From Planctomycetaceae bacterium (lineage in GTDB: Bacteria > Planctomycetota > Planctomycetia > Planctomycetales > Planctomycetaceae), in assembly GCA_021732845.1 (NCBI GenBank), contig JAKFUF010000188.1, positions 1-64,000 of the forward strand: 64,000 nucleotides of DNA, written 5' to 3'. Under the pieces are notes generated by a model. It was not told where the DNA came from. It saw only the letters and a program-made list of their open reading frames with translations, and did not search any database. The translations under genes and the position numbers were made by a program. Shown here one piece after another: positions 27,575 to 42,485 of this stretch; within the stretch, counting starts at the first letter, position 1; each line of letters starts with the position of its first letter.

Positions 27575-27919
27575 TTATCGGTATGGACCAAAGCCGCCGA
27601 CAAAACCCAAGCGGCCGGCATATCCGTTTTCTTCACAATGCTTCAAGAGCTTGCCGAGTAAATCCGGTTCAGGCGGGTCAAATGTGAGATCAAAGTTGAT
27701 TTTGTTTCCTGCCCGACTCACCTCCGCTTTCTGATACCCAGGTTGTTTCGTCAGCCAATCTAAAACCTCGTGATCGTCGGGTGGAAGAGCCTGGTATTCG
27801 ACCCGAAGCGTGTAGTTCGAGTAAATGGTTCGCCTGCGAGCCTGATCCCAGAAGTAAACACTTCCGATTAGGCTCACGATTCCGACTACGAACACCACCC
27901 ATGCAAGTCGAGACTTCAT
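27575..27919 (-). CDS. Cassette gene, membrane-anchored hypothetical protein
   Basis: 114 residues, start 20 bp after the core at 27939. One N-terminal membrane helix (LAWVVFVVGIVSLIGSVYFW), then a soluble domain of about 85 residues (YSNYTLRVEYQALPPDDHEV). No family recognised. Confidence 0.65.
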   Translation of the reverse strand: MKSRLAWVVFVVGIVSLIGSVYFWDQARRRTIYSNYTLRVEYQALPPDDHEVLDWLTKQPGYQKAEVSRAGNKINFDLTFDPPEPDLLGKLLKHCEENGYAGRLGFVGGFGPYR

Positions 27920-27938
27920 AGAGTGTCCCCTTCTTGTG

Positions 27939-28035
27939 GCCGAACGCCCAGGTTAACCCGTGTGTGCCGCGGGCGGGATTGAACTCACAGCAAAAGCCGC
28001 CTGCGGCACACCTCGGGTTGAACCGCTTGTTAGGC
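27939..28035 (-). repeat. attC, family 1
   Basis: Left core GCCGAAC (27939-27945), right core GTTAGGC (28029-28035). The bottom strand folds as R''-L''-distal stem-L'-R', with L'' carrying one extra C relative to L' (extrahelical base). A conserved flank block follows at about 28036-28093. Confidence 0.93.
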
Positions 28036-28607
28036 AAGACGGCCCGGCTTGACATGAGCGCTGACGACACGGCACGAGGTGAATGCTACCACGCGGCCAC
28101 GGGGTTGGGAATGGTTTTGTAGGGCTGGTGGATGACGGACGAGAGCCCGACGGCAGGGGCCGAAGCCGACCGCGCCCGTGCCGCGCAACTGCGGACTCCG
28201 GGGAAACGCCCGGCTTCGCGACCGCACAGCCGGCGTTCCCAGTGCTAAAACGACCGGCGTGGCTTCAATACTGAACAGGCGGCATGCCCCGGACACGCCA
28301 AGGTGACGCTGCTTGCCGATTGCCCACGACAGCTACCGGCGCGGCCAAACGGGAGGGAGCGCGGACAGCGAGGCACGGGGTGGAGGCCGCGGATGGAGCC
28401 ACGGGGTTGGGATTGGTTGGTGTGGATGATGGACAAGCAACAGCGGCGCAGGTCGGAGCCGATCACGCGAGAGGCGGCGCAACCGTGGAGAAGCGCAGAA
28501 CTGTCGGCCTCCCAGCACCCCGGCGTTCCTGTATCTGAAACAACCGCCGTGGCTTCGCGATGCTGACAGCCAAAGCGCCCCGCACACCACCCAGAGCAGC
28601 GATGCTT
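28036..28607 (-). other. Gene-less cassette (long form)
   Basis: About 570 bp with no ORF of coding character in cassette orientation. It begins with the attC-flank block (28036-28093). The rest is closely related to 36665-37135, including the shared runs GCGCCCGTGCCGC, GGATGATGGACAAGCA and GCCGATCACGCGAGAGGCGG. The flank-block motif recurs inside (about 28366-28420), as if the cassette grew by internal duplication. Confidence 0.75.
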
Positions 28608-28705
28608 GCCTAACACCAAGGTTAACCCGCGTGTGCCGCGGGCGGGATTGAACTCACGGGAAAATGCCGACTGCGGCACACGTCGGGTTGAACCGCTTGT
28701 TAGGC
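28608..28705 (-). repeat. attC, family 1
   Basis: Cores GCCTAAC (28608-28614) and GTTAGGC (28699-28705). One of three family-1 sites without the flank block: the stop codon of the next gene follows directly. Confidence 0.93.
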
Positions 28706-28706
28706 G

Positions 28707-29285
28707 TTACGGCTGATCTTCGTATTCAACTGTAGGAGGAGGGACGTATGGTTCTGCTTTTCGATATTCACTGCCCAATTCAAACCAAACGTCTGGAAAT
28801 TCGTCCCGAGTCCATGACAATTGAGGAGAGAGCAATTCGACGAGGAATTGCGTCAGCGACATCGGAAGTTCATAAACCACAATGCCCCAAGTAGACCAGT
28901 AGAGCAATGTCCATTCATTGCAATTGCCTTGCGTGACCCAGCAGACAAGATCGTTCTCGCGCTGAATGATGGGAAAGAGTCCTCCGGGGGTTGGATAATT
29001 CGGGTACGGAACTCGATCGCGCCCCCTATTTACAGAATCGATAACGTCTGTCAACAGCCGAGCGGAATCAGCGGCCCAATCGCCATTCTCAGGGTGCAAG
29101 ACTGCCAGAGTATGACAGATCGTGCAGTTGCCGTATGTTTCGATGAACCTCTTGTAGTCATCAGGCAACTGCAGCCGCAAATTGTTCTCTACCGCATCCC
29201 AGTCAACAACCGTCGCATGAGGCGTCGCCGGAGGTGGAAGCAACTCGATTAAGTCTGCCAATGCGGACGTCACGTTGAACCTCAA
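28707..29285 (-). CDS. Cassette gene, SMI1/KNR4 (SUKH) family protein
   Basis: 192 residues, starting 30 bp after the core at 29315. The N-terminal helix-loop segment VDWDAVENNLRLQLPDDYKRFIETYGN is the signature of the SMI1/KNR4 (SUKH) superfamily. Later landmarks are GGLFPIIQRENDLVCWVTQG and WTLLYWSTWGIVVYELP. Many bacterial SUKH proteins are immunity partners of contact or Rhs toxins; no toxin gene is visible here, so a stand-alone immunity or regulatory role is only an inference. Confidence 0.82.
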   Translation of the reverse strand: MRFNVTSALADLIELLPPPATPHATVVDWDAVENNLRLQLPDDYKRFIETYGNCTICHTLAVLHPENGDWAADSARLLTDVIDSVNRGRDRVPYPNYPTPGGLFPIIQRENDLVCWVTQGNCNEWTLLYWSTWGIVVYELPMSLTQFLVELLSPQLSWTRDEFPDVWFELGSEYRKAEPYVPPPTVEYEDQP

Positions 29286-29314
29286 TCTGACTGATGCAAG
29301 AGTGTGTTACCACA

Positions 29315-29412
29315 GCCTAACGACCAGGTTAACCCGCGTGTGCCGCGGGCGGGATTGAACTCACGGGAAAATGCCGACTGCGGCACACGTCGGGTTGAAC
29401 CGCTTGTTAGGC
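29315..29412 (-). repeat. attC, family 1
   Basis: Cores GCCTAAC (29315-29321) and GTTAGGC (29406-29412). Flank block at about 29413-29470. Confidence 0.93.
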
Positions 29413-29589
29413 AGTGCGGCCCGGCTTGATATGAGCGCTGACGACGCCATCGACGGGTGAATTGTACCACGGAATTACCGGTGTTGGGAATTGTCCCTTG
29501 GAAACACGGGAGAAGCGGGAATGTTCACCAGCAGATTCCTCCACCGCATCCACCATCGCCTACGCCTCGCGGGCGAATGCCGCGCACTC

Positions 29590-30003
29590 TCACCGCAGTT
29601 CCTTGCGTATAACGAGTTTCAAGCCAGACCATACCTCGCTTACGGCACAGACCTTCACATCGACAAGTCCGAGAGGCAACGCCAACTCGCGGATCGTGTC
29701 TTCGGTAATGTCGGTTGCCACTTTCGACGCCTTCTTAGGCCAAGACACCCAGATTGCTGCGTCGGCTCGGATTTCATCCCTCAAGTCTTTCAATTCCCCA
29801 GCGAGCCGCGACTTCTCGACTGTGAAGACATGTACGACGTCGGTGCTGCTCGATACCTTCTTCTCAATCTTGACGCCCGGAGGAATAGGTTCCAGAAGTT
29901 TGGCATAGTCATCTGGAGCCCACCGTGTCACGATGCGCACGTTGGCGAGGATGCCCAGCTTCTTGGCGAGAGGTGTTCCCGAGTATCCGGCGGGCGAAGG
30001 CAT
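29590..30003 (-). CDS. Cassette gene, DUF3052 family protein
   Basis: About 138 residues from the ATG at 30003. The N-terminus AGYSGTPLAKKLGI and the later WVSWPKKASKVATDITEDTI ... GLVDVKVCAVSEVWSGLKLV match the conserved landmarks of DUF3052, a small family of unknown function. The frame stays open upstream through the attC (to 30240), but that part is attC sequence, so the ATG at 30003 is preferred; it lies 66 bp from the core at 30069. Confidence 0.85.
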   Translation of the reverse strand: MPSPAGYSGTPLAKKLGILANVRIVTRWAPDDYAKLLEPIPPGVKIEKKVSSSTDVVHVFTVEKSRLAGELKDLRDEIRADAAIWVSWPKKASKVATDITEDTIRELALPLGLVDVKVCAVSEVWSGLKLVIRKELR

Positions 30004-30068
30004 TCTTGGTGTCGGTTGTGATCGAGGAGTATTCTGACGGTGGGCCAACAATGGGTGGTTCTTGTGCT

Positions 30069-30166
30069 GCCTAACGCCAAGGTTAACCCGCGTGTGCCGC
30101 GGGCGGGATTGACTGCCAGGGAAAATGCCGACTGCGGCACACGTCGGGTTGAACCGCTTGTTAGGC
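30069..30166 (-). repeat. attC, family 1
   Basis: Cores GCCTAAC (30069-30075) and GTTAGGC (30160-30166). Flank block at about 30167-30222, partly degraded. Confidence 0.93.
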
Positions 30167-30243
30167 AAGACGGCCCTGATAGACATACGCGCGGGCGACA
30201 CCGCACGGGGTGAATGCTGCGATACGCTGCTTGCACGCATTTT

Positions 30244-30618
30244 CTACCAGAACTGCCACCATGGCTTACTTCGCGCATGGGTGATGGGTTCCGGTGCCGC
30301 GCTCAGGCTGTACTCCTTCACCGGTTTGCCGCTTGAGTCTAGCAATGCAACATCGACGTTGACAGACTTCAACAAAGGCGACAAGTCCTGTTCGCTGTCG
30401 TACGTCTGTTTCAACGCGGATTCGATTGCCTCGTGGTTGTCCAGGGAGCACACGACTGTAAAAATGACTCGCTCGCAGCGATCTTGGTGCTTTGCCTTCC
30501 AGTCCAACAATGCGGCCTTCACATTGCGGAGCTCTGCGAGAAACGCATCGACAGATTCCGGAGCAACCGTGATTCCGAGCGCCACATGTCGCCCCTTCGA
30601 GAACTCCATCACCCGCAT
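30244..30618 (-). CDS. Cassette gene, hypothetical 124-residue protein
   Basis: Starts 11 bp after the core at 30629. A soluble alpha/beta protein (HVALGITVAPESVDAFLAEL ... CERVIFTVVCSLDNHEAIES) of macro- or von Willebrand-like size, ending in the tryptophan-rich SKPWWQFW. No family recognised. The stop lies about 20 bp before the flank block. Confidence 0.65.
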   Translation of the reverse strand: MRVMEFSKGRHVALGITVAPESVDAFLAELRNVKAALLDWKAKHQDRCERVIFTVVCSLDNHEAIESALKQTYDSEQDLSPLLKSVNVDVALLDSSGKPVKEYSLSAAPEPITHARSKPWWQFW

Positions 30619-30628
30619 GGAAACTCCA

Positions 30629-30726
30629 GCCTAACGCCCAGGTTAACCCGCGTGTGCCGCGGGCGGGATTGAACTCACGGGAAAATGCCGCCTGCGGCAC
30701 ATGTCGGGTTGAACCGCTTGTTAGGC
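30629..30726 (-). repeat. attC, family 1
   Basis: Cores GCCTAAC (30629-30635) and GTTAGGC (30720-30726). Flank block at about 30727-30783. Confidence 0.93.
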
Positions 30727-31011
30727 ACGGCGACCCTGCTGGACATGAGCGCCACCGACACGGCACGAAGTGAATGCTACCACGGGACCGGTGGCTTGTG
30801 AATTGAATTTAGGTGCGCGGCCGGTAACTGCGGTGGTGCGGAACTGGAATCGCGCGGCGCGTCAGAACCGGTGGCGGGGACTGCGGACGGGAGCGTAACG
30901 CATGGCTTCGCGACTATGTGACCGATATACCTTGAGCCACGACAGGAGCGGCGTGGCCCAGTGGCGTGGAACATCCGACGTGCCAAGCAAACGCTCGCAG
31001 TGGCGGCGCTG
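30727..31011 (-). other. Gene-less cassette (short form), fused to the PP2C cassette
   Basis: No ORF in cassette orientation. The left end is the flank block; the right end (about 30950-31011) resembles the right ends of the gene-less cassette at 38986-39206 and of the segment at 35242-35335. Its right border is the bare double core at 31012-31025. Confidence 0.65.
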
Positions 31012-31025
31012 GCCTAACGTTCGGC
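31012..31025 (-). repeat. Back-to-back core sites, remnant of a deleted attC
   Basis: GCCTAAC (31012-31018) is joined directly to GTTCGGC (31019-31025). These are the two outer cores of an attC with its whole interior missing. The PP2C stop codon lies within the left core. Confidence 0.6.
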
Positions 31026-31667
31026 CGGGGCCTCCAACACGACAACAGTGAAGTCGTCTTGGAGGCCACCACTTCCAGGCAGGCGTGCCAACCGCTGCAG
31101 TTCGTTGATCATTGCCGACCCGCAGGCTCGAGCTGCGACCTCGACCACGCGATCCCACCCGACATACTTCCACACCCCATCAGACATCACCAGCACCCGC
31201 CAGGGTTCCTTGACCGCCGCCTCGAAGGAAACGGCCACCGCCGCCCCTGAACCAACGGGCGGATTCTTGTGCTGGCCGGCGGTCAGTTCGTTGGCCTTCC
31301 CCCTGCTGACCAGGAGAGCGGCCGAATCCCCGCTGGACGCGCCCACCACGCGGCCCCGGCTGACGCACAGACCCACCAGCGTAGTGAACCCAGCGTCGGC
31401 GTCGGCTGCGACAGCCGCGTCGGCCTGCCGCAGAACGCCCGACCAAGTAGACGGGTCGGTCAACTCGGCGGGCCGACAGCCGAGGGCCGCGGCCAAGGCG
31501 CTGTGGCACGCGAGCCGCGCAGCCGGGCCGCCGCCCGCCTGTCCGCCCTGCCCATCGGCGAGAAACGCAAACCAGCAGTCGGCGTCGAGTGGGTGAGCTT
31601 GGACGCAGAAAGCGTCTTCGTTTAAGCGGTGGCCACCCACTTCAGAGTATGACTGGACGCCAACCAT
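31014..31667 (-). CDS. Cassette gene, PP2C-like protein phosphatase
   Basis: 217 residues, starting 17 bp after the core at 31684. PP2C metal-site landmarks are present in order: RLNEDAFCV near the N-terminus, FLADGQGGQAGG (for the usual xDGxGGH), SGDSAALLVSRG, VLVMSDGVWKYV and the C-terminal DDFTVVVLE. The usual histidine after DGxGG is replaced by glutamine. It would dephosphorylate phosphoserine or phosphothreonine in the cytoplasm. No kinase is adjacent. Its attC is deleted, so it can move only together with the following gene-less cassette. Confidence 0.85.
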   Translation of the reverse strand: MVGVQSYSEVGGHRLNEDAFCVQAHPLDADCWFAFLADGQGGQAGGGPAARLACHSALAAALGCRPAELTDPSTWSGVLRQADAAVAADADAGFTTLVGLCVSRGRVVGASSGDSAALLVSRGKANELTAGQHKNPPVGSGAAVAVSFEAAVKEPWRVLVMSDGVWKYVGWDRVVEVAARACGSAMINELQRLARLPGSGGLQDDFTVVVLEAPAER

Positions 31668-31683
31668 TGCTCCGTCTCAAGCA

Positions 31684-31775
31684 GCCTAACGCCCAAAATC
31701 ACCGGGCTGCGGCGAGTGACTTGGCAAAGTGTAAACAACGCACCACCGCAGCTCCGGTGCATTTTATCGTTAGGA
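31684..31775 (-). repeat. attC, family 3
   Basis: Cores GCCTAAC (31684-31690) and GTTAGGA (31769-31775). Arms CACCGGGCTGCGG and CCGCAGCTCCGGTG pair imperfectly. Belongs to copy 1 of the triplicated cassette. Confidence 0.88.
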
Positions 31776-32142
31776 CAAGTGAGCCACGACGATTACCAAC
31801 TGTGCTTCAACAAGAAACGCGAAGCGGATCGCGACCGTCGTGGGAGTTCCTGCCGTTGATCAAACGATATCGACCAAAAGCCTTCGAGACAAGATGCAGA
31901 TCGCGATTGTGAATCCGCACTGACATTCATGTTAGAAAACAGCCAACGCAAAGCCGAGTGAGAAACGCCCGTTGCGAAACAACCGCAGATCTGGAAAGCG
32001 TAAGCGAAACAAAGCCGACAAACGCCGGAAATGGAACGACTGATCTGCATCCCATCACAACCGACAAACACAACGAAACCCAAACGCAGTCAGATCCGCC
32101 CTCCACGCGGCACTGAATGCGATTATCAAACGATCTAAGCTG
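31776..32142 (-). other. Triplicated gene-poor cassette, copy 1 (body)
   Basis: About 367 bp between family-3 and family-4 attC sites, nearly identical to 32775-33141 and 33234-33600. A minus-strand ORF with a TTG start (32083-31793, 96 codons, cysteine-rich) exists here and in copy 2 but is cut by an early TGA in copy 3, so coding is doubtful. Confidence 0.75.
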
Positions 32143-32234
32143 TCCTAACGACTGCGTTAACCGGGTGTGGCTGAACCCGGCAACCATTTCAGACCCGGCA
32201 AGTAGCCACACTCCGGTTCAACGCTTTGTTCGTC
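32143..32234 (-). repeat. attC, family 4
   Basis: Left core TCCTAAC (32143-32149), right core GTTCGTC (32228-32234). Interior arms GTTAACCGGGTGTGGCT and AGCCACACTCCGGTTCAAC pair well with an extra base. The only member of its family in the window. Confidence 0.88.
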
Positions 32235-32661
32235 AACGTCGTCGCCACTTTGACGCAATCAGAATCTGATCACAAGTGGCGCATACCCACAGAGTACATG
32301 TTCTTCCGGTGTAATCAGGGGATACCATGATTTGTTCAAACGTAGCGTGCGGAAACCGTTCGACCATGTCTTGCTCGAATTCTCGACTGTAATCGATGCA
32401 CCCATGAAAAACGCGGACTTCTTTCGGGAAGAGTTCATCCTCATGCAGCTCGCAAATCCGCAGTGCATCAACCAATGCGTCTTCGGACAGCAGGAAGTCC
32501 GGATTGGCTGAGATGAATGATTGCCAAAGATCCTGTTGCCAGAATCGAAGACGCGAGTCTTTGCGTCGCGCTGTTTGATGAAGTGCTTGGACGAATCGCT
32601 TATACGTCTCAGCGCCAGTGTATTCCTTGAATCGCGTTCGGAATTCAATTGTCGTGTGCAT
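32233..32661 (-). CDS. Cassette gene, hypothetical 142-residue protein
   Basis: Starts 22 bp after the core at 32683 and its stop overlaps the right core of its attC. A soluble protein rich in charged helices in the N-terminal half (FVQALHQTARRKDSRLRFW). The C-terminal half contains CTLWVCATCDQI, a possible metal-binding cysteine pair. No family recognised. Confidence 0.65.
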   Translation of the reverse strand: MHTTIEFRTRFKEYTGAETYKRFVQALHQTARRKDSRLRFWQQDLWQSFISANPDFLLSEDALVDALRICELHEDELFPKEVRVFHGCIDYSREFEQDMVERFPHATFEQIMVSPDYTGRTCTLWVCATCDQILIASKWRRR

Positions 32662-32682
32662 TCACGTTGGGGTTCTTGAATT

Positions 32683-32774
32683 GACGAACGCCCAAAATCA
32701 CCGGGCTGCGGCGAGTGATTTGGCAAAGTGTAAACAACGCACCACCGCAGCTCCGGTGCATTTTATCGTTAGGA
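32683..32774 (-). repeat. attC, family 3
   Basis: Left core GACGAAC (32683-32689), right core GTTAGGA (32768-32774). The left core matches the neighbouring family-4 site, showing the exchange point of an attC x attC recombination. Confidence 0.88.
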
Positions 32775-33141
32775 CAAGTGAGCCACGACGTTTACCAACG
32801 GTGCTTCAACAAGAAACGCGAAGCGGATCGCGGCCGTCGTGGGAACTCCTGCCGTTGATCAAACGATATCGCCCAAAAGCCTTCAAAACAAGGTGCAGAT
32901 CGCGATTGTGAATCCGCCCCGACATTCATGTTAGAAAACAGCCAACGCAAAGCCGAGTGAGAAACGCCCGTTGCGAAACAACCGCAGATCTGGAAAGCGT
33001 AAGTGAAACAAAGCCGACAAACGCCAGAAATGGAACGACTGATCCGCATTCCATCACAACCGACAAACACAACGAAACCCAAACACAGTCAGATCCGCCC
33101 TCAGCACAGCACTGAATGCGATTTTCAAACGACCTAAGCTG
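32775..33141 (-). other. Triplicated gene-poor cassette, copy 2 (body)
   Basis: Near-identical to copies 1 and 3 over about 367 bp. The minus-strand ORF (33082-32792, 96 codons) is open here. Confidence 0.75.
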
Positions 33142-33233
33142 TCCTAACGTCCAAAATCACCGGGCTGCGGCGAGTGATTTTGTAAAGTGTAAAAAGCGCA
33201 CCACCGCAGCTCCGGTGGATTTTATCGTTAGGA
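33142..33233 (-). repeat. attC, family 3
   Basis: Cores TCCTAAC (33142-33148) and GTTAGGA (33227-33233). Joins copies 2 and 3 in direct tandem. Confidence 0.88.
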
Positions 33234-33600
33234 CAAGTGAGCCACGACGATTACCAACTGTGCTTCAACAAGAAACGCGAAGCGGATCGCGGCCGTCGTG
33301 GGAGTTCCTGCCGTTGATCAAACGATATCGACCAAAAGCCTTCGAGACAAGGTGCAGATCTCGATTGTCAATCCGCACTCGCATTCAGGTTAGAAAACAG
33401 CCAACGCAAAGCCGAGTGAGAAACGCCCGTGGCGAAACAACCGCAGATCTGGAAAGCGTAAGTGAAACAAAGCCGACAAACGCCGGAAACGTAACGACTG
33501 ATCTGCATTCCATCACAACCAACAAACACAACGAAACCCAAACACAGTCAGATCCGCCCTCAGCACTGCACTGAATGCGATTAACAAACGATCTAAGCTG
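33234..33600 (-). other. Triplicated gene-poor cassette, copy 3 (body)
   Basis: Near-identical to copies 1 and 2. The shared minus-strand ORF meets a TGA at about 33378 (sequence ATTGACAATC where the others read ATTCACAATC or CGATTGTGAAT-equivalent). No other gene seen. Confidence 0.7.
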
Positions 33601-33698
33601 TCCTAACACCAAGGTTAACCCGCGTGTGCCGCGGGCGGGATTGAACTCACGGGAAAATGCCGACTGCGGCACACGTCGGGTTGAACCGCTTGTTAGGC
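33601..33698 (-). repeat. attC, family 1
   Basis: Left core TCCTAAC (33601-33607), right core GTTAGGC (33692-33698). Flank block at about 33699-33755. Confidence 0.93.
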
Positions 33699-33862
33699 AG
33701 AGCGACCTGACGGGAGGGCGCTGACGACACGGCACGGGGTGAATCCTACCACGCGACCAGCGGATTGAGAAATGCTCTTGCTTGATTGCCGGAGTGTGTT
33801 TTTGCTGCGGCGGTGTGGCTTCGGACACACGTAAACGACTTGCAGCGCCTTGATGGCAGAGT

Positions 33863-34129
33863 TCAGGGGACGCCGAACTCTGCGAGGAACCGGTCAATCT
33901 GCTCGTCCGATGCACGCCACTCTCTGCCGCGTATCTCATACAGGGCGACAAGCCCCAGCAGCGTCACGAGGTCTTCGGCAACAAATCGGTGGCCCGAATC
34001 TTCGGCCACCCAACACGCCGCCGAGCCGGTCTTCATAACTGGGTCTTGGAGAACTGTGAAACCACGCTCCAGGAGCGCGAGATATGCCGGAATTATGACG
34101 TTCCCGGCGTTCGCAAGCGTCGACTTCAT
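33863..34129 (-). CDS. Cassette gene, hypothetical 88-residue protein
   Basis: Starts 17 bp after the core at 34146. Small and mostly helical (NAGNVIIPAYLALLERGFTV ... GREWRASDEQIDRFLAEFG). The layout of one helix, a beta hairpin and a C-terminal helix would suit a small immunity-type protein, but no family is recognised. Confidence 0.65.
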   Translation of the reverse strand: MKSTLANAGNVIIPAYLALLERGFTVLQDPVMKTGSAACWVAEDSGHRFVAEDLVTLLGLVALYEIRGREWRASDEQIDRFLAEFGVP

Positions 34130-34145
34130 GATCCACGGTCCCGCT

Positions 34146-34202
34146 GCCTAACGCCAAGGTTAACCCGCGTGTGCCGCGGGCGGGTTGAACCGCTTGTTAG
34201 GC
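34146..34202 (-). repeat. attC, family 1, internally shortened to 57 bp
   Basis: Both cores are intact (GCCTAAC 34146-34152; GTTAGGC 34196-34202) and so are both L arms. The 41 bp forming the distal stem in the other family-1 sites are missing, apparently by deletion between two CGGG words. A short flank block follows (34203-34243). Confidence 0.88.
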
Positions 34203-34293
34203 GGGGCGACCTGACGTGACACGGCACGGGGTGAATGCTACCACTCACGCACGGGAAATGGGAACTGTTTCAAGGGGTCCGTCTAATTTGAGA

Positions 34294-34545
34294 TTAGGCA
34301 TCGGACTCGACCAGCGTATCGGATTTGCATCGAGGGCAGGTGTACAAGTAGCGGGCGGCTGGGACATCCCCTAACCATAAACTACCCATTCCAACGTAAC
34401 CAGCTGCTGCGGTCTCCGCATCCGCTATCGCAGTCAGGCCAAGTATCGGGCCATGCGTTTCGACGTGCGCGGCGGCATCCATCATAGCGCCTGAAATCAG
34501 AGTCAGTCCGCACTGAGGGCAATTGTCAGGCAGCCTAAGGGCCAT
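34294..34545 (-). CDS. Cassette gene, small zinc-ribbon-like protein
   Basis: 83 residues, starting 11 bp after the core at 34556. Two cysteine pairs, CPQC near residues 9-12 and CPRC near 70-73, could bind one zinc ion. Between them lies a helix with AAAHVETHGP. No family recognised. An attC family-1 site follows after the short flank block. Confidence 0.7.
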   Translation of the reverse strand: MALRLPDNCPQCGLTLISGAMMDAAAHVETHGPILGLTAIADAETAAAGYVGMGSLWLGDVPAARYLYTCPRCKSDTLVESDA

Positions 34546-34555
34546 GGGACCACCA

Positions 34556-34653
34556 GCCTAACGCCCAGGTTAACCCGCGTGTGCCGCGGGCGGGATTGAC
34601 TTCACGGGAAAATGCCGACTGCGGCACACGTCGGGTTGAACCGCTTGTTAGGC
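34556..34653 (-). repeat. attC, family 1
   Basis: Cores GCCTAAC (34556-34562) and GTTAGGC (34647-34653). Flank block at about 34654-34711. Confidence 0.93.
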
Positions 34654-34770
34654 AAGACGGCCCGGCTTGACATGAGCGCTGACGACACGGCACGGGTTGA
34701 ATGCTACCACGGAGCCACGGGGGGTGGAATTGATTGTGGTGGTGCCCGAGCGAAGGTAGGCCGCGGAGAG

Positions 34771-35241
34771 TTACACCGATGACTCCCATTTCAAAGTTGG
34801 ATCGAAGCCGCCGTGATCGCAATAGTATCGCGCGGCGCGAATCACCGCTTCAATGTCGCGACAAATGTGACGCTCCGCGTCGGTGAACCCTTGGTCGCTC
34901 GTCCAAACAGCGACTTCTGCCTCGCCTTGTTCAGGATTATTCAGCCTACGCTGGAAAAACCCGTCGAAGGTTCCAGCCAGCCAGTATGCGCCATTGCCTC
35001 CCATGATCTCAAACAAACCGCCATCGTCATAAGTGTGCTTGCGTTCGTCTTCGGTTGCCCACAAGGACAAGAACGGATACTCGAAGCGGTTCAATCGATG
35101 AATGGCGTGCCAGACATCGTCCCATGTCGGATTTGCAACTTTGTGGGACTTCCATCCCCATCCGGATGCATCGTACACGGTGTAGCCAAGGGACTTGACG
35201 TGCATCAGTGCTTCGACTCCAACGCGTGGCTTCTCGACCAC
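34771..35241 (-). CDS. Cassette gene, hypothetical 156-residue protein inside scaffold-like flanks
   Basis: Soluble, aromatic-rich (SGWGWKSHKVANPTWDDVWHA ... GGLFEIMGGNGAYWLAGTFD). It resembles in style Imm1-type immunity proteins, but the match is only by eye. Unlike other cassette genes, its start lies 94 bp from the core at 35336. The intervening 35242-35335 is homologous to the right end of gene-less cassettes, and the flank block lies behind the stop. Confidence 0.6.
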   Translation of the reverse strand: MVEKPRVGVEALMHVKSLGYTVYDASGWGWKSHKVANPTWDDVWHAIHRLNRFEYPFLSLWATEDERKHTYDDGGLFEIMGGNGAYWLAGTFDGFFQRRLNNPEQGEAEVAVWTSDQGFTDAERHICRDIEAVIRAARYYCDHGGFDPTLKWESSV

Positions 35242-35335
35242 AGAACCAACATGCCCGGAACGGCAACAAGACCGGCGTGGCTCATGATGGATGAACAGCC
35301 GACGTGCCCCGCAGATGCTCGGAGTGGCGACGCCA

Positions 35336-35433
35336 GCCTAACGCCAAGGTTAACCCGCGTGTGCCGCGGGCGGGATTGACTTCACGGGATAATGCCGACT
35401 GCGGCACACGTCGGGTTGAACCGCTTGTTAGGC
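35336..35433 (-). repeat. attC, family 1
   Basis: Cores GCCTAAC (35336-35342) and GTTAGGC (35427-35433). Flank block at about 35434-35491. Confidence 0.93.
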
Positions 35434-35537
35434 AAGACGGCCCTGCTGGACAGACGCGCGGACGGCACCGCACGGGGTGAATGCTACCACAGAGCGACAA
35501 GCTTCAAAATGAGCGACAAGCACAAAGTACCCCGCAA

Positions 35538-35846
35538 CTACTGCCTCTCAGGAACAAAGTCAATTGGTGGGTCTGCAACGTGTTTCAACCATAGAGCGAG
35601 GTCTTCGGCAGTGTGAGTGTAGCCGAGATCACCACAGGCTATACCGTGCTTCGATTCGATCAATTTACTGCGAACCCACGACTCCAGTTCTGCGACTGTT
35701 GCCTTCCGGTCAGACCGAGCATGAAGTGTATAAGAAGTGACTGTGCTGTTGTGGAAATAGACATCGTGAAAGGCATATTCGATGCGGCCCTCTCCTTCAG
35801 AGTGGCGCATGATCTGTGGACGCCAATACGTCATGCCATCATCCAC
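35538..35846 (-). CDS. Cassette gene, hypothetical 102-residue protein
   Basis: Starts 10 bp after the core at 35856. A soluble protein with IEYAFHDVYFHNSTVTSYTL strands and a C-terminal helix (TAEDLALWLKHVAD). No family recognised. Confidence 0.65.
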   Translation of the reverse strand: MDDGMTYWRPQIMRHSEGEGRIEYAFHDVYFHNSTVTSYTLHARSDRKATVAELESWVRSKLIESKHGIACGDLGYTHTAEDLALWLKHVADPPIDFVPERQ

Positions 35847-35855
35847 TGCTTTAAT

Positions 35856-35953
35856 GCCTAACGCTCAGGTTAACCCGCGTGTGCCGCAGGCGGGTTTGAC
35901 TGCCAGGGAAAAAGCCGACTGCGGCACACGTCGGGTTGAACCGTTTGTTGGGC
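35856..35953 (-). repeat. attC, family 1
   Basis: Left core GCCTAAC (35856-35862), right core GTTGGGC (35947-35953). Flank block at about 35954-36011. Confidence 0.92.
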
Positions 35954-36138
35954 GGGGCGGCCCTGGTGGACATACGCGCGGACGACACGGCACGGGGTGA
36001 ATGCTACCACGGGACCACGGGGTTGAGAACTGCATTTGTGCGGATCGTGAAAGGGCGGCGGATATAGCACAGTTGAATGCATTGGCGAGGCCCGTTGCCC
36101 GCGGCTGAGGGCCCGAGTCCCCAATTAGTCACGTCATG

Positions 36139-36531
36139 TCACGTGCCGCTCCTTCTCAGTGCGTCGGGGAGTCGCTTGATAATCTCCTCGGCTGGCTGAG
36201 GCTGCAAGACAATGACCTGCGTCTGATTAGCGTCATATCCATACTGAAGAGCGATACCTATCGTCTTGGGAGAATACCAGCCCAGCTTGCCACCATCGGT
36301 GGATTCCGTGGCCTCTTGCGCTGGAGTGCCGAAGGCTTTTATTAGAAACGACTCCACCTCAGTAAAACGGTCTCGAGGCATATGCACGACTACCCCATAC
36401 TGGTCCTCCGAGTAACTCCATTCTCCTGCGATCACTGGGAGTCCGTCGGTGGCCACAGGACGAGCGCCTCGTTTGAGCGTCTGCTGCATTAGGAATTGTC
36501 CCATGTCGCCGGCGCCCTTCGTAAACCGCAT
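36139..36531 (-). CDS. Cassette gene, probable 5'-truncated lipoprotein
   Basis: From the first ATG inside the cassette (36531) the product has about 130 residues (MRFTKGAGDMGQFLMQQTL...). Just upstream in the same frame, between core and ATG, the DNA encodes LAILCGCSRAGE, which looks like the end of a lipoprotein signal with its cysteine, but no start codon lies between it and the core at 36567. The frame is open back through the attC to 36699. The gene seems to have lost its true start at the cassette border, or relies on read-through translation. Confidence 0.6.
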   Translation of the reverse strand: MRFTKGAGDMGQFLMQQTLKRGARPVATDGLPVIAGEWSYSEDQYGVVVHMPRDRFTEVESFLIKAFGTPAQEATESTDGGKLGWYSPKTIGIALQYGYDANQTQVIVLQPQPAEEIIKRLPDALRRSGT

Positions 36532-36566
36532 TTCGCCGGCTCGGGAGCATCCGCAAAGGATCGCGA

Positions 36567-36664
36567 GCCCAACGCCAAGGTTAACCCGCGTGTGCCGCAG
36601 GCGGGTTTGACTGCCAGGGAAAAAGCCGACTGCGGCACACGTCGGGTTGAACCGCTTGTTAGGC
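36567..36664 (-). repeat. attC, family 1
   Basis: Left core GCCCAAC (36567-36573), right core GTTAGGC (36658-36664). Flank block at about 36665-36721. Confidence 0.92.
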
Positions 36665-37135
36665 AAGACGGCCCTGATGGACATACGCGCGGACGACACG
36701 GCACGGGTTGAATGCTACCACGATGCCACGGGGATGGGAATGCTTTTGTAGGGATGATGGATGACGGACGAGAGCCGGACGGCACGGGCCGAAGCGGACC
36801 GCGCCCGTGCCGCACAACTGCGGACTACGGGGAAACGCCCAGCTTCGCGACCACACAATTGGCGTTCCCAGTACGGAATCGACCGGCGTGGCTCCGGTGC
36901 GGAACAGCCGACGTGCCCCGGACGCTCCAATGTGACGACGTTTGCCGATCGACCAAAACAACTGCCGGCGCCGCCAGAGGGGAGGGAGCGCGGACAGCGT
37001 GGCACAGGGTGGATGCCGCCGACGGAGCCACGGGATTGGGGATGGTTTGTGTGGATGATGGACAAGCAGCAGCGGCGCAGGTCAGAGCCGATCACGCGAG
37101 AGGCGGTGCAACTGCGGAGAAGCGCAGAACCGTTG
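36665..37135 (-). other. Gene-less cassette (long form), fused to the LRR cassette
   Basis: Begins with the flank block, then about 410 bp closely related to 28094-28500. No ORF of coding character in cassette orientation. Similarity to the other copy stops at about 37135, where a fragment of a family-2 attC begins. Confidence 0.72.
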
Positions 37136-37168
37136 GCGGCCGGTGTCTGCTGCAGCGCCTGGTTCGGC
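37136..37168 (-). repeat. Half of a family-2 attC (chimeric junction)
   Basis: Only the right half is present: GTCTGCTGCAGCGCCTG then core GTTCGGC (37162-37168), identical in style to 26336-26363. The left half is replaced by gene-less cassette sequence. Confidence 0.65.
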
Positions 37169-37204
37169 GTTCGCTCTCGCCGGGAGCCGTTCTACACGGC
37201 TTGC

Positions 37205-37828
37205 TTAACGCGTGATCCGGCATTCCGGCAGTGCTTTCTGAACTTTCGCGGCCCCCGCGTCGGTCACTTTGGTATCCCTCAAGACGAGGGTAGTCAGTCC
37301 CTTGAGTCGGGCAAGATCCTCGACTCCCTCATCCGTCACCAGAGTGCCGTCGAGGAGGAGGGTGGCCAGCTTCTTGTGCGCAGCAAGTTCCTTCAGGCCT
37401 GCGTCCGTGACCTTGGTCCCCCCGAGGCTGAGGTACACCAGCCCCTTCACCTGTGCGAGTTCCTTCAGGCCCGCATCGGTCACCTTCGTCCCGTTCAGTG
37501 AGAGCGAGCCCAGGTCCTTGAACCGAACGATGTTCTTGAGGCCCGCGTCCGTCACTTGCGTGTCGTTCAGGGTGAGCGAGCCCAGTTCCTTGAACCCCGC
37601 GAGGTCTTTGAGGTCCGCGTCTGTCACTTCCTTGCCGAGCAGCGTCACCGAGTACACCGGCTTGTCCGCCTTGCCTTCGACCCGAAGAACCTGGCCGCCG
37701 AGCCTCTCCACCGTCGCGAGCGCTTTCTTCTCGGCTTCCTCGTAGCCGGCAAGGGCGGCGGGAGCCAGTACAAGCACAGCGACGGAAAGCAAAACGACCG
37801 CTTGCTTCTGACCACGGCACAGCATCAT
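37205..37828 (-). CDS. Cassette gene, secreted leucine-rich-repeat protein
   Basis: About 207 residues from the ATG at 37828 (GGAGAAA upstream). A signal peptide (QAVVLLSVAVLVLAPAALAG) is followed by five or six repeats of 24 residues with the pattern VTDAGLKELAxxKxLxxLxLxxTx, a plant/bacterial-type LRR common in planctomycetes. The repeats are very regular at the DNA level. Such repeats bind proteins; the target is unknown. Its attC is only half present (37136-37168). Confidence 0.85.
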   Translation of the reverse strand: MMLCRGQKQAVVLLSVAVLVLAPAALAGYEEAEKKALATVERLGGQVLRVEGKADKPVYSVTLLGKEVTDADLKDLAGFKELGSLTLNDTQVTDAGLKNIVRFKDLGSLSLNGTKVTDAGLKELAQVKGLVYLSLGGTKVTDAGLKELAAHKKLATLLLDGTLVTDEGVEDLARLKGLTTLVLRDTKVTDAGAAKVQKALPECRITR

Positions 37829-37910
37829 TTTCTCCTTCGTGTAGGATGATCGGTTCACGCTGTCCGACGAGTTACCCCAGTTACCGGATTGGCCCACTGC
37901 CGTTTCCGTC

Positions 37911-38008
37911 GCCGAACGCCCAGGTTAACCCGCGTGTGCCGCGGGCGGGATTGAACTCACGGGAAAATGCCGACTGCGGCACACGTCGGGTTGAACCGCT
38001 TGTTAGGC
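37911..38008 (-). repeat. attC, family 1
   Basis: Left core GCCGAAC (37911-37917), right core GTTAGGC (38002-38008). No flank block: the next gene's stop overlaps the right core. Confidence 0.92.
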
Positions 38009-38347
38009 ACGTTTGTTGATCTGTGGATGCCATTGCCTGAGCTGTCGATTGAACGCTTCCCGCACGATTGACACGCCGTCATGCCAGTCTTCAAAGAAAC
38101 CCCTTCTGCCCCAATCAACCGGGTATGCATAGCGAACCCCTTCAGCAAACTCCGACACCCAATTAACTGGCTCGTCCGTTTCAACGACATGGAAGCAGGC
38201 TGGATCGTAAAGAACTGGTTCGTGGCGGTCGTTTAGAAGGCGGTACCAATCTGCCTCGATCCCGAGAACGTCATAGAGTCGTCCCAACGTGAGTGACGAA
38301 TAAACACTTTCGTCGGGCGCATGCCGTGACATCAGCTTGACCCTCAT
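38003..38347 (-). CDS. Cassette gene, hypothetical 114-residue protein
   Basis: Starts 18 bp after the core at 38365 and ends inside its own attC core. It contains LTLGRLYDVLGIEADWYRLLNDRHEPVLYDPACFHVVE, an SH3-like beta layout, and a basic C-terminal helix. No family recognised. Confidence 0.68.
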   Translation of the reverse strand: MRVKLMSRHAPDESVYSSLTLGRLYDVLGIEADWYRLLNDRHEPVLYDPACFHVVETDEPVNWVSEFAEGVRYAYPVDWGRRGFFEDWHDGVSIVREAFNRQLRQWHPQINKRA

Positions 38348-38364
38348 ATTGGAACGCCTTCACC

Positions 38365-38464
38365 GCCTAACGCCCAGGTTAACCCGCGTGTGCCGCGCGG
38401 GCGGGATTGAAGAACACGGCAAAAGCCACCTGCGGCACACGTCGGGTTGAACCGCTTGTTAGGC
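38365..38464 (-). repeat. attC, family 1
   Basis: Cores GCCTAAC (38365-38371) and GTTAGGC (38458-38464), 100 bp. Flank block at about 38465-38522. Confidence 0.93.
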
Positions 38465-38584
38465 GGGACGGCCCTGGTGGACATAAGCGCGGGCGACACG
38501 GCACGGGGTGAATGCTACCACGAGACCACGGGGTTGAGAACTGCATTTGTGTCAATGATGGGGGTGCGGCCATCTGCGTGAGGA

Positions 38585-38872
38585 TTAATCAAGAAACGGT
38601 GTAAAAGACAGTACGTTTCCTGGTTCATCACGGCAGCGAACGGCGAGCGAAATGATTTCCCGTATATGGTCGAAGTCGTCTGGTGCCAGGTCATGCAATT
38701 CCGTCAGCAATTGCGGCATGTCGGTGTGGTCGAAAACGTCGTAACTGCAATTGTCGAGCTGCGAGAGGAGGGGAAAACGCGATTCGTCCGACTGGCAAAG
38801 GTATGCTTCATTGCCTTCGCGTCCAATCTCCACCACTTTGCCTGCAGACGATTCTAGGATGACTCGAATCAT
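38585..38872 (-). CDS. Cassette gene, hypothetical 95-residue protein
   Basis: Starts 16 bp after the core at 38888. Small and acidic (VVEIGREGNEAYLCQSDESR ... LLTELHDLAPDDFDHIREII). Size and charge resemble small immunity-type proteins; no family recognised. Confidence 0.65.
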   Translation of the reverse strand: MIRVILESSAGKVVEIGREGNEAYLCQSDESRFPLLSQLDNCSYDVFDHTDMPQLLTELHDLAPDDFDHIREIISLAVRCRDEPGNVLSFTPFLD

Positions 38873-38887
38873 GAGGGTGATTCACCG

Positions 38888-38985
38888 GCCTAACGCCAAG
38901 GTTAACCCGCGTGTGCCGCGGGAGGGATTGAACAGCACAGCAAAAGCCGCCTGCGGCACACGTCGGGTTGAACCGCTTGTTAGGC
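38888..38985 (-). repeat. attC, family 1
   Basis: Cores GCCTAAC (38888-38894) and GTTAGGC (38979-38985). Flank block at about 38986-39042. Confidence 0.93.
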
Positions 38986-39206
38986 GGGGGTGACTTGACG
39001 CGAGGGAGCGCGGACGACACGGCACGGGGTGAATGATACCACGGAGCCACGGGAGTTGGAAACTGATTGCGGTGGACGGAGGAACCGAGCCACGGGAGGC
39101 GGCACACGGGAGCGGCGGCTCTCGGGACAAGTTTCGGTGCCGACCGCGTGGCTCACAACCGATGGACAGGCAACGTGCCCCGCACAACGCTCGGAGTGGC
39201 GACGCA
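38986..39206 (-). other. Gene-less cassette (short form)
   Basis: 221 bp, flank block at the left end, no ORF in cassette orientation. The right end (AACGTGCCCCGCACAACGCT... to 39206) is shared with 35242-35335 and, less closely, with 30950-31011. This is the smallest complete member of the gene-less family. Confidence 0.75.
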
Positions 39207-39275
39207 GCCTAACGACCAAGCTCACCTGCCCGGCCCGGCTTTGAGGGGCGGGGAAGGTGCACCGCCTGGTTCGAC
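39207..39275 (-). repeat. attC, family 2 (short, 69 bp)
   Basis: Left core GCCTAAC (39207-39213), right core GTTCGAC (39269-39275). Arms CAAGCTCACCTGCC and GGAAGGTGCACCGCCTG. A family-2 site within the family-1 stretch. Confidence 0.82.
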
Positions 39276-39278
39276 GCA

Positions 39279-39626
39279 TTACTGCTGGTTCGACGGCGGC
39301 TGTGATTCGGGACGCACTGCCGAGTCCTGCGGCTCGTCTGGCGAAGAGGCGGTTACGGCAACAAGTCGCCGGTGAGCAATGAACGCAGCCAAAGCGCCGG
39401 ACACGAGACCCAACCCAATTCCCAAGATCGGCAATTCGATGGCAGCCCATGACGCGCCCGGCGTCGAGATGAACGGGATCATAACGAGAGCCGTCACAAA
39501 CGCCATGACGGGCGTGGCAAGCCACCCCAAGACAAACGCGCTCTGCGGCCGTCGGGCACGCGAGCCCAGCCACGTGCCGAGCAGAATCGGCGTAAGCAGC
39601 GCGAACGATCCGGTGATGACTTGCAT
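39279..39626 (-). CDS. Cassette gene, hypothetical membrane protein
   Basis: 115 residues, starting 17 bp after the core at 39643. Three predicted hydrophobic segments (GSFALLTPILLGTWLG, FVLGWLATPVMAFVTALVMI, ELPILGIGLGLVSGALAAF) and a polar proline-rich tail. No family recognised. Confidence 0.7.
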   Translation of the reverse strand: MQVITGSFALLTPILLGTWLGSRARRPQSAFVLGWLATPVMAFVTALVMIPFISTPGASWAAIELPILGIGLGLVSGALAAFIAHRRLVAVTASSPDEPQDSAVRPESQPPSNQQ

Positions 39627-39642
39627 AAGTTTGCCCCGAGCC

Positions 39643-39742
39643 GCCTAACGACCAGGTTAACCCGCGTGTGCCGCGTGGGCGGGATTGAACAACACGAAAA
39701 AGGCCGCCTGCGGCACACGTCGGGTTGAACCGCTTGTTAGGC
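39643..39742 (-). repeat. attC, family 1
   Basis: Cores GCCTAAC (39643-39649) and GTTAGGC (39736-39742), 100 bp. Flank block at about 39743-39795. Confidence 0.93.
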
Positions 39743-39882
39743 AAGACGACCCTGCTGGACATACGCGCGGACTACATGGGGTGAATGCCACCACGGAATC
39801 ACGGTGTTGGGAACTGCTATTGTGCGGATAGTTGAGGGCGGCGAATGTGTGTGGATTTGCGGAGGGCGGCACTACATCTCAC

Positions 39883-40374
39883 TTACCGTTCATCATTTTC
39901 GTCGCTTCCGCCGCCGTCCACACCTGATGAGCTGGCCACAGGTGCCATGCCTGCCATTGCCGTGCGCTTAGGCAACGGGAATATTGGAGGCGGCGGGAAA
40001 TACTGAACTGTACACCGAGTACAACATAGCACCACCCTTCCACGAATGACTTCGAGATCATTATGTACGGGCCAATAGCCATTGAAATGTTGTCGGCCAT
40101 AGACGACATCCTGCCACGACCGGCGATCGGCAACAGGATCGCTCCGCCACCACTTGGGCTCCTTTGAACTATCGGCAAATCCGTCGGCGGGATATCCGTA
40201 ATGCGATGCATCCCAGAGCTTCTTTGCATCTGCAATACGCCCCTCTGATAGAGCCTTGGCAAACGCATTCGCAGTCCGTTGTGGCCACGTCACCCAATTC
40301 CACACCGCAAGCGTCAGCAAGGCGATAATCGACACGACCAGGCAGAGGAAAAGACGACTACTACCTATTGTCAT
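39883..40374 (-). CDS. Cassette gene, membrane-anchored hypothetical protein
   Basis: About 163 residues from the ATG at 40374, 13 bp after the core. One N-terminal membrane helix (LFLCLVVSIIALLTLAVWNWV), a soluble domain with WPVHNDLEVIRGRVVLCCTRC, and a proline- and glycine-rich tail. The frame runs on upstream through the attC but that part is attC-encoded. No family recognised. Confidence 0.65.
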   Translation of the reverse strand: MTIGSSRLFLCLVVSIIALLTLAVWNWVTWPQRTANAFAKALSEGRIADAKKLWDASHYGYPADGFADSSKEPKWWRSDPVADRRSWQDVVYGRQHFNGYWPVHNDLEVIRGRVVLCCTRCTVQYFPPPPIFPLPKRTAMAGMAPVASSSGVDGGGSDENDER

Positions 40375-40386
40375 TGGTGGCTCACC

Positions 40387-40484
40387 GCCTAACGACCAGG
40401 TTAACCCGCGTGTGTCGCAGGCGGGATTGAACAGCACGGCAAAAGCCGCCTGCGGCACACGTCGGGTTGAACCACTTGTTAGGC
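40387..40484 (-). repeat. attC, family 1
   Basis: Cores GCCTAAC (40387-40393) and GTTAGGC (40478-40484). Flank block at about 40485-40541, partly diverged. Confidence 0.93.
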
Positions 40485-40541
40485 ACGACAGTCTCGACGG
40501 GGCTGCACTCGGACACACGGCACGGGATGATGCTACCACAC

Positions 40542-40637
40542 AACCGATGGCCTGAAAACACTGGCAAAGTCAGTGGCACACTCCCAAATACGAATTTCGC
40601 TCATTCCGCCAGTGCCACACCCGCCGCCTGGCTCGGC
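40542..40637 (-). repeat. Degenerate attC-like remnant
   Basis: Between the flank block and the lipoprotein stop lies a pair CAGTGGCACAC / CAGTGCCACAC in imperfect inverted relation, then GCCTGGCTCGGC (40626-40637), which is one base off a family-2 right core. No left core is recognisable. A third example of a cassette fused to block sequence. Confidence 0.4.
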
Positions 40638-40646
40638 GTGCCTTTG

Positions 40647-40991
40647 TTAATGTGGCGGGTCCGACTTGTACTTGTACCGTCGGCCTGCCGGCCGCTGTTC
40701 GAATCCGTCCGGGTACAGTTGTTGGCGCAACAGCTCGTCGACCACGAGAGTCATGGCCAAGTTCTGTGTCACTGGCTGCCCTTGCCAAGTGAGATCCTGC
40801 GGCACAAACAACTCGAACGTAGTCGTACCTTTCGGCAGGTCAGTGGCCTGAGCGAGCAGTGCCTCAAGTGTGCCCGACGACGATTCGGTCACCGATTTCT
40901 CCTGCGGGGCGGTCGGCGGAGCGGCGGGCGGGGTGTTTGAGCCGCCGCAACCGAGCGCGAGGATTGCAAGGAACGGTAAATGCCTCAACAC
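40647..40991 (-). CDS. Cassette gene, small lipoprotein
   Basis: 114 residues, starting 17 bp after the core at 41008. A lipoprotein signal with LAILALGCGGS at the N-terminus is followed by a proline-rich linker (NTPPAAPPTAPQEK), then a domain of about 80 residues (TTTFELFVPQDLTWQGQPV). Expected to be anchored in the cell envelope. No family recognised. Confidence 0.72.
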   Translation of the reverse strand: MLRHLPFLAILALGCGGSNTPPAAPPTAPQEKSVTESSSGTLEALLAQATDLPKGTTTFELFVPQDLTWQGQPVTQNLAMTLVVDELLRQQLYPDGFEQRPAGRRYKYKSDPPH

Positions 40992-41007
40992 GCCCGCGAC
41001 CTCCGTC

Positions 41008-41105
41008 GCCTAACGCCCAGGTTAACCCGCGTGTGCCGCAGGCGGGATTGAACTCACGGGAAAATGCCGACTGCGGCACACGTCGGGTTGAACCGCTTGT
41101 TAGGC
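41008..41105 (-). repeat. attC, family 1
   Basis: Cores GCCTAAC (41008-41014) and GTTAGGC (41099-41105). Flank block at about 41106-41162. Confidence 0.93.
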
Positions 41106-41295
41106 AAGACGGCCCTGCTGGACATACGCGCGGGCGACACGGCACGGGATGAATGCTACCACGGGGTCATAAGAGTGGGAACTGAATGTGTTGGGCTAGG
41201 ATCCGAATGTGTGGTGCAAGACGAGGCCTTGCTTGAGGGGGCGACGCCCACCTTTATCAGGGTCCGCTCGGCAAACCCTGTTGGTTCGCTCAGGC

Positions 41296-41748
41296 TCACG
41301 CCAACTCTGGGAACATCTCTCGGAGAAGCCGCGCCTGGTCTTCGCGTGCATCTACTACCAGATTGCTGTAGTGCAGGAAGTAATCGAGCGATTCAAACCG
41401 ACCAATTCGCTGTGGCTCACCCTCGCGGTGTTCCCAGTCATCGGGATATAACAAGCAGATCAACGCGCGAACTGCAGCGACTTTTGGGTTGACGACTTCG
41501 CAGGAAGCCGTTCCGAGATATTTCCACGCCGCAACCCGCGCAGCCTCCAACTCGCTTGCGGTCGCCGCGCCAATTCGGTAGTCCCGCGCCACACTGAGCC
41601 ATTGTTCGGAATCGCGTGGTAGGAAGCCAACAAGGCTTTGGCAGCAGGCTTCCTGAAACTGTCGCAGGCGGCCGATTTCGCCGGAAATGTCGCCATGGCG
41701 CTCCAAGTCATAGAGCAACTGCCAGGGTGTTTTGGCATGTTCCATCAA
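41296..41748 (-). CDS. Cassette gene, hypothetical 150-residue protein
   Basis: Starts 12 bp after the core at 41760. Helical and tryptophan-containing (TPWQLLYDLERHGDISGEIGRL ... NSEQWLSVARD-like segment, then AVRALICLLYPDDWEHREGE). No family recognised; soluble, no signal peptide. Confidence 0.65.
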   Translation of the reverse strand: MMEHAKTPWQLLYDLERHGDISGEIGRLRQFQEACCQSLVGFLPRDSEQWLSVARDYRIGAATASELEAARVAAWKYLGTASCEVVNPKVAAVRALICLLYPDDWEHREGEPQRIGRFESLDYFLHYSNLVVDAREDQARLLREMFPELA

Positions 41749-41759
41749 GGAACTCGGCC

Positions 41760-41857
41760 GCCTAACGCCAAGGTTAACCCGCGTGTGCCGCGGGCGGGAT
41801 TGACTTCACGGAAAAATGCCGGCTGCGGCACACGTCGGGTTGAACCGCTTGTTAGGA
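41760..41857 (-). repeat. attC, family 1 (attC of the first cassette)
   Basis: Left core GCCTAAC (41760-41766), right core GTTAGGA (41851-41857). No flank block follows: this is the cassette nearest the integrase. Confidence 0.92.
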
Positions 41858-41904
41858 CCGCGGCAAAAATAAGTGTCGGTTTTCGACACGTTATTCAGCC
41901 AATG

Positions 41905-41967
41905 AGCCGGCACGCGTTAGCGTCCGGTTTGATGTCGCCAAGAACCGGACGCTAACGCGTGCCGGCT
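41905..41967. repeat. Perfect 25-bp palindromic repeat (dispersed element)
   Basis: Arms 41905-41929 and 41943-41967 are exact inverted copies with a 13-base loop. The words ACGCGTTAGCGTCCGGTT also occur in single-arm form at 44308-44342 and, diverged, at 45826-45850. It could act as a transcription stop for the first cassette, but the lack of a T-tract makes a simple terminator unlikely. Confidence 0.8.
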
Positions 41968-42035
41968 GATGGAACTGGCCCTTGTCGCGGGACCAACTCC
42001 CAATCAAAATCACTAACTTATTGTTGCTGCGATCC

Positions 42036-42476: not shown

Positions 42477-42485
42477 GTCTTTCAC

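Follow-up and report, generated by a model that had tools for sequence, protein, structure and literature searches.

Why do most attC recombination sites of one integron array carry the same additional sequence beside them, and what might this sequence do there? The array lies in a 64,000-nucleotide stretch of DNA from a Planctomycetaceae bacterium (assembly GCA_021732845.1, contig JAKFUF010000188.1, positions 1 to 64,000; hereafter the window), which corresponds to contig C28; the whole genome comprises 9.25 Mb, split over 262 contigs. Its cassettes sit to the left of the integrase gene intI and are read leftward. Of its 18 family-1 attC sites (27938–41857, minus strand), 15 carry a conserved block on the R'' (gene-3') side, and both the counts and the coordinates agree with the original prediction, which had been made from the letters of the window. 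The block is a real element, common to several genera and cassettes, and judged from its sequence it is most likely a portable promoter. More specifically, it probably forms the 3' end of mobile cassettes that lack a gene, where it would act as a sigma-70-type promoter, and gene cassettes would have inherited it from these.

The block was also found outside the window. Eight further attC sites elsewhere in the genome carried it (contigs C22, C205, C43, C56, C35, and C13), and the copy on C43 adjoined only half an attC. The 15 window copies were aligned with these eight, and the counts over 23 copies given here refer to this alignment, which omits C13:69953 (attC half lost), C98:25563, C56:22017, and the internal copies at 28359 and 36981. 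Conservation extended over approximately 90 bp, rather than the 55–60 bp originally estimated; it peaked 31–60 bp from R'' (1.37–1.73 bits per position, compared with 1.09–1.30 next to R'') and faded outward. When the 90-nt flanks of the 18 window sites were compared, those on the R'' side were alike (local score of at least 25) in 55% of pairs and those on the R' side in 1%. A 21-bp core, with up to three mismatches allowed, occurred at 23 places in the 9.25 Mb, whereas the reversed pattern did not occur at all; 22 of these places stood, in our reading, beside an intact, partial, or collapsed attC, the exception being C98:25563. The statement of the original prediction that the block lies outside the standard attC and yet travels with it is supported. 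Its description of the three block-less sites, as followed directly by a gene stop or by the first cassette, was correct in part: a gene stop lies 1 nt from R'' at 28608 and a gene runs into R'' at 37911, but approximately 178 nt with an inverted repeat separate 41760 from the first-cassette gene. At C98:25563 (L036:6561–6586), the core copy stands ahead of a broken open reading frame (ORF) without an attC; we take this ORF to be hicA-like, which Pfam and NCBIfam do not confirm. Just to the left of C56:22017, in L025, a decayed block comes after a miniature attC-like site, GCCTAACGACCAGGTTGACCTTGTTAGGT.

On the cassette strand, most copies had the grammar of a sigma-70-type promoter: TTnnnA, a spacer of 16–18 bp, and TGGTAnnAT. 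In the stretch of 35 aligned positions upstream of the core, 90% conservation was reached by three bases only, namely T, T, and A (in 22, 22, and 20 of 22 copies), which are the first, second, and sixth of the −35 hexamer and which stood 17 bp from TAnnAT in the alignment. Without recourse to the alignment, TT was found at a spacer of 17 or 18 bp in 21 of the 23 copies and at 16–18 bp in 22, and at this spacing it outnumbered every other dinucleotide-and-place combination scanned. The spacer varied in sequence, whereas its length stayed at 16–18 bp in all 22 copies with TT. The best sigma-70 score exceeded that of composition-matched random sequences (p < 0.05) on the cassette strand in 20 copies out of 23 and on the other strand in one. 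A scan of the 14.9 kb from 27800 to 42660 gave only six strong candidates for a promoter (9 or more of 12), about as many as in shuffles (4.8), but three of the six were block copies, and all three had TG before the −10. The stretch from the −10 to R'', usually 47 nt, was reduced to 32, 32, and 23 nt in three copies, in which deletions of 15–24 bp had left the motif intact. By our tally, a same-strand ORF lies in the next downstream cassette for 14 of the 15 window blocks, and the remaining block (33699) faces a gene-less cassette.

The window copies, all on the minus strand, are located at 28036–28123 (promoter-like, reading leftward through the attC at 27938–28035), 29415–29501 (TTCCCA-18-TACAAT at 29490–29461, with TG before the −10), 30167–30225 (cut short at the −10 region, with the promoter motif lost), 30728–30815 (TTCACA-17-TAGCAT at 30802–30774), 33701–33784, 34203–34277 (approximately 15 bp missing between the −10 and R''), 34654–34739, 35435–35510, 35956–36042, 36665–36753, 38467–38553, 38994–39068 (TTTCCA-18-TATCAT at 39062–39033), 39743–39826 (−10 weakened to TGGCAT), 40487–40560, and 41106–41192.

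At several places in the array, the block forms the 3' end of apparently gene-less cassettes of approximately 220–285 bp (hereafter shells), which also hold a second conserved part at their 5' end, next to the R' boundary. The shell at 38986–39206 (minus strand; 221 bp without its attC) is bounded by an attC on both sides, as a mobile cassette would be. The 285-bp shell at 30727–31011 (minus strand), whose 3' end is likewise the block, is joined to a PP2C-like gene (31014) by what appears by eye to be a collapsed attC, GCCTAACGTTCGGCC (31011–31025, minus strand). Two shells are fused to each other at 28036–28607, and two more at 36665–37139, where they are attached to the gene at 37205–37897 (both pairs on the minus strand). 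The second shell of the latter pair contains a decayed internal block copy without its own attC (36981–37053, minus strand), and another internal copy, at 28359–28418, has decayed further. We read a degenerate attC-like stretch between the tandem-fused shells. A coding remnant in the shells appears unlikely, as no codon signature was found: mismatches between two shells were spread over the codon positions as 19, 23, and 25, stops occurred in all 12 frames, and gaps relative to a shell copy in another genome (G211, described below) were not in threes. Chance-like ORFs do exist, with two of the six frames of the 38986 shell lacking a stop and shell ORFs of 67–126 amino acids present, some of them beyond the 210-bp limit used in PMC11014356.

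Gene cassettes carry the same module. In the window, 13 ORFs are joined to it, and the cassette ORFs, which were chosen by us as the cassette genes, are dissimilar (among 16 compared, the closest pair had an E of 0.099). In 11 gene cassettes the stop codon lies 77–190 nt from R'', with the block in between, whereas in two block-less cassettes the gene extends up to or into R''; since the corresponding distance ranges from −6 to 140 nt in 10 cassettes of a related genome (G114), longer tails alone are not diagnostic. A few junctions retain traces of how they may have formed. Between the gene at 37205–37897 and its fused shells lies a near-perfect R''-half remnant of a family 2 attC (37145–37174, minus strand), 30 nt from the stop codon of that gene, and its score of 28 was reached in none of 500 random sequences. 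A weaker remnant (40625–40643, p = 0.028) lies 3 nt from the stop at 40647. A third gap, 39832–39849 (p = 0.010), was not counted as a scar because it adjoins the block in shell-like sequence. In the cassette at 34654–35335, both shell ends are kept around the gene at 34771–35208, the 5' end being retained before it at 35221–35336 (minus strand). The scars and the retained shell ends fit the loss of an attC between cassettes, which is a known route to fused cassettes, and suggest that gene–block junctions may have arisen where such loss joined a gene cassette to a promoter cassette. Most junctions have no scar, so other routes may also have contributed. The original suggestion that the block may mark how cassettes are made is supported.

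We regard the following scheme as the most probable. A promoter cassette would consist of approximately 220–285 bp without a gene and a family-1 attC, with the block at its 3' end. Its promoter would point outward through its own attC into the gene of the next cassette, and, in an excised circle, through the attC into the gene carried by the cassette itself. Promoter cassettes would have been inserted behind many gene cassettes, and where the intervening attC was lost, gene and promoter would have become fused into gene–block–attC units that could still move as one cassette. The promoter would act on neighbouring genes and would be kept by selection. If this scheme is right, cassette position would matter less for expression in such arrays, and unrelated cassettes may carry a portable switch for their neighbours. 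More tentatively, the attC with its promoter end may be a reusable cassette part, gained repeatedly by fusion to one lineage of promoter cassettes; each cassette would thereby activate the one next to it and, when circular, its own gene. We consider this wider version doubtful. If it were true, expression would be relayed along the array and would no longer depend on a single Pc.

Homologues of the block in other genomes were found only with a profile; the block DNA as a query gave no match in the 58 relatives sampled, none of which belongs to the source genus. In a genome of the same family but another genus (G188), the block stands beside an attC (E 3.5e-8), with a −35 of TTGCCA, a spacer of 18, and a −10 of TAACAT, the TG before the −10 having been lost. 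In a genome of another family (G211), a shell copy (G211:C3:316016–316279) is 70% identical over 266 bp to the shell at 30727–31011 (E 5.5e-29) and spans from the R' boundary to half an attC; it was the only match outside the source genome among 397 genomes at E 1e-4. The −35, the spacing, and the −10 are retained in both. The weaker hits at family and class level (E above 1e-5) were not counted as evidence. Outside the source genus, the block has homologues next to an attC in one genus and next to half an attC in a second genus, which belongs to a different family. Together with the divergence of the blocks, which differ by 28% on average compared with 13% for their own attC sites (21 sites), these homologues contradict the possibility, raised in that prediction, that the block is a carry-over from one recent cassette expansion. 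In G114, which belongs to another genus and has the same attC type, none of the 12 sites examined (nine in L158 and three in L215) had the block, although G114 may hold more attC sites than these (5 of 114 candidates were scored there); the block profile found no match in this genome.

The 30727 shell with its attC had no match in plasmids or phages, and the exact core patterns were absent from GTDB-220 contigs and IMG/VR, from which records near the source genome may be left out. A viral contig with the core and GCCTAAC was set aside as a probable chance match, since by eye it resembled ordinary coding sequence of a phage-like kind and gave no match to the block model. In another family, a core precedes the start of an ORF by a few tens of bases (L250; G409:C271:8083–8131); it is possibly used there as an ordinary promoter and was not counted as evidence. 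Among 132 sources including the window, four other arrays with at least four sites had no alike pairs of R'' flanks, and a fifth (Agitococcus lubricus, L303), obtained with another setting of the analysis, had 17%. This wider comparison is thin; contigs often end in the arrays, and the attC detector is strict.

Several observations weigh against reading the block as a mobile promoter. As the 23 copies are homologous, their agreement does not amount to 23 independent tests, and the sigma-70 frequencies used for scoring were general background values. The motif is lost or weakened in three of the 23 copies (30167, 39743, and C56:23340), the core copy at C98:25563 stands away from any attC, and conservation does not stop at the −10 but reaches approximately 25 bp further (about position 70 of 92), which a bare promoter leaves unexplained. 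The attC and block distances were uncorrelated (Mantel r = 0.11, p = 0.28; 21 of the 23 copies), indicating that the two have not simply co-diverged. Of the 14 gaps tested for an attC scar, 3 reached p < 0.05 and 12 gave no convincing scar, and 3 of the 12 ORFs tested matched a Pfam family above the cut-off (ORF 33863 was outside this test). The exact 15-mer core was found in 2 of 396 other genomes, compared with three hits of the reversed control, and we accordingly rejected a general promoter motif of the class. The homology of all copies, their outward fading, the three impaired motifs, and the block-less attC sites of the same family in G114 would also be expected of a passive relic, left from the 3' end of a gene-less cassette that used to be common and kept by its linkage to attC, with an ancestral promoter look and no present function. 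We regard this as unlikely, because conservation peaks away from the attC, the −35 TT stays constant although the spacer varies in sequence, the spacer kept its length of 16–18 bp where sequence near R'' was deleted, and the −35, spacing, and −10 persist in G188 and G211.

The conservation beyond the −10 would be easier to understand if the core, GTGGTAGCATTCACCCCGTG, were bound by a regulator or another protein, which might control recombination or silence the array, but no palindromic core was evident to us, and the restriction of the core to 23 places, 22 of them beside an attC, would be odd for a host regulator, making a binding site improbable. The position of the block between stop and R'' in 11 gene cassettes recalls a terminator or an RNA structure in the 3' untranslated region that closes each cassette transcript, and the original prediction had likewise supposed that the block might end transcription. 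All six copies folded were no better than shuffles (z-scores of −0.58 to +1.38), no T/U run was evident by eye, and the covariation term was unfavourable in six shells; furthermore, of 20 terminator-like sites found (17.1 expected), only one overlapped a block, on the other strand (30781–30800). An intrinsic terminator or a conserved RNA structure is thus very improbable. Even less credible is the other role initially suggested, in which the block would extend the recombination site and assist folding of the attC bottom strand. The fixed place next to R'' would suit it, but of three block-bearing attC sites folded together with the block, two kept every pair and one lost 9 of 37, two block-less sites kept their fold when their own flanks were included, and the block is absent from 3 of the 18 window sites and all 12 examined in G114. 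An intrinsic terminator, an RNA structure, and a folding aid were all left without support from folds, scan, or covariation, and the promoter at the end of a gene-less cassette remains the reading that we prefer.

The surroundings of the block are those of an integron. The integrase IntI (42652–44085, plus strand; 477 amino acids) scored 424 bits against the TIGR02249 cutoff of 265, with the integron-integrase model spanning only residues 161–476, and nearly full-length matches to it occur also in G066, G152, G154, and G158. Within 22.7 kb there are 23 attC sites with complementary R'' and R' and folding arms, compared with none in the reversed control. The attI site and Pc are putative, being recognised by eye. 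A search of 20000–46500 against Rfam, up to E 1, gave no group II intron and hence no sign of a group IIC-attC intron; the attC hairpins gave 12 weak matches to miRNA families, and one match to Chlorobi-1 fell within intI, all of them below gathering scores. Three further gene-less cassettes of approximately 459 bp at 31684–33600 are 95–96% identical over 300 bp and have another attC type. An inverted-repeat element, GCCGGCACGCGTTAGCGTCCGGT, lies at 41901–41965 near the first attC and again at approximately 44301–44350 and 45830 behind intI, and a terminator-like hairpin (41889–41873, minus strand) may stop Pc transcripts after the first cassette. A gene of the SUKH / SMI1-KNR4 family (28707–29285) occupies a cassette without the block.

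This array bears on two questions, namely how distant cassettes are expressed in long arrays and how genes become joined to attC. With 23 natural copies of the 3' module in the genome (15 in the array), 13 dissimilar genes beside it in the array, and a few readable scars, both become testable. Among known systems, the closest are the promoter cassettes of Vibrio superintegrons and the ORF-less cassettes of oral Treponema, in which gene-less promoters are reported to serve downstream cassettes (PMC11014356, PMC6557892). They share with the shells the lack of an evident gene, a terminal attC, and a sense-strand promoter (here predicted); by comparison with these accounts, the shells form one homologous family with a fixed 3' promoter-like module that also occurs on gene cassettes and in two bacterial families. 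In Vibrio sp. DAT722, a sigma-70 promoter at the junction of cassettes 20 and 21 serves the next cassette (PMC2945992), as we predict here, although that case is described as one junction bridging the attC, whereas here 23 homologous copies lie outside it. Group IIC-attC introns, which carry outward promoters (PMC8876359), likewise place a mobile promoter between a gene and its attC, but Rfam detected no group II intron in the interval searched. Several resistance cassettes have the qacE-101 segment fused at their 5' end (PMC8876359), which is likewise a single promoter segment reused by unrelated cassettes; this segment lies upstream of the gene that it drives, whereas the block lies behind the gene. 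Fused cassettes such as blaGES-1/aacA4 are known as well (PMC4670013; PMC8876359), and the second partner would here be a gene-less promoter cassette, the same for many genes. The literature searched, as far as those sources extend, describes no promoter module that gene cassettes have in common at their 3' ends, which is no proof of its absence from print. Promoter cassettes are already known, and it is the common 3' module on gene cassettes that appears to be new.

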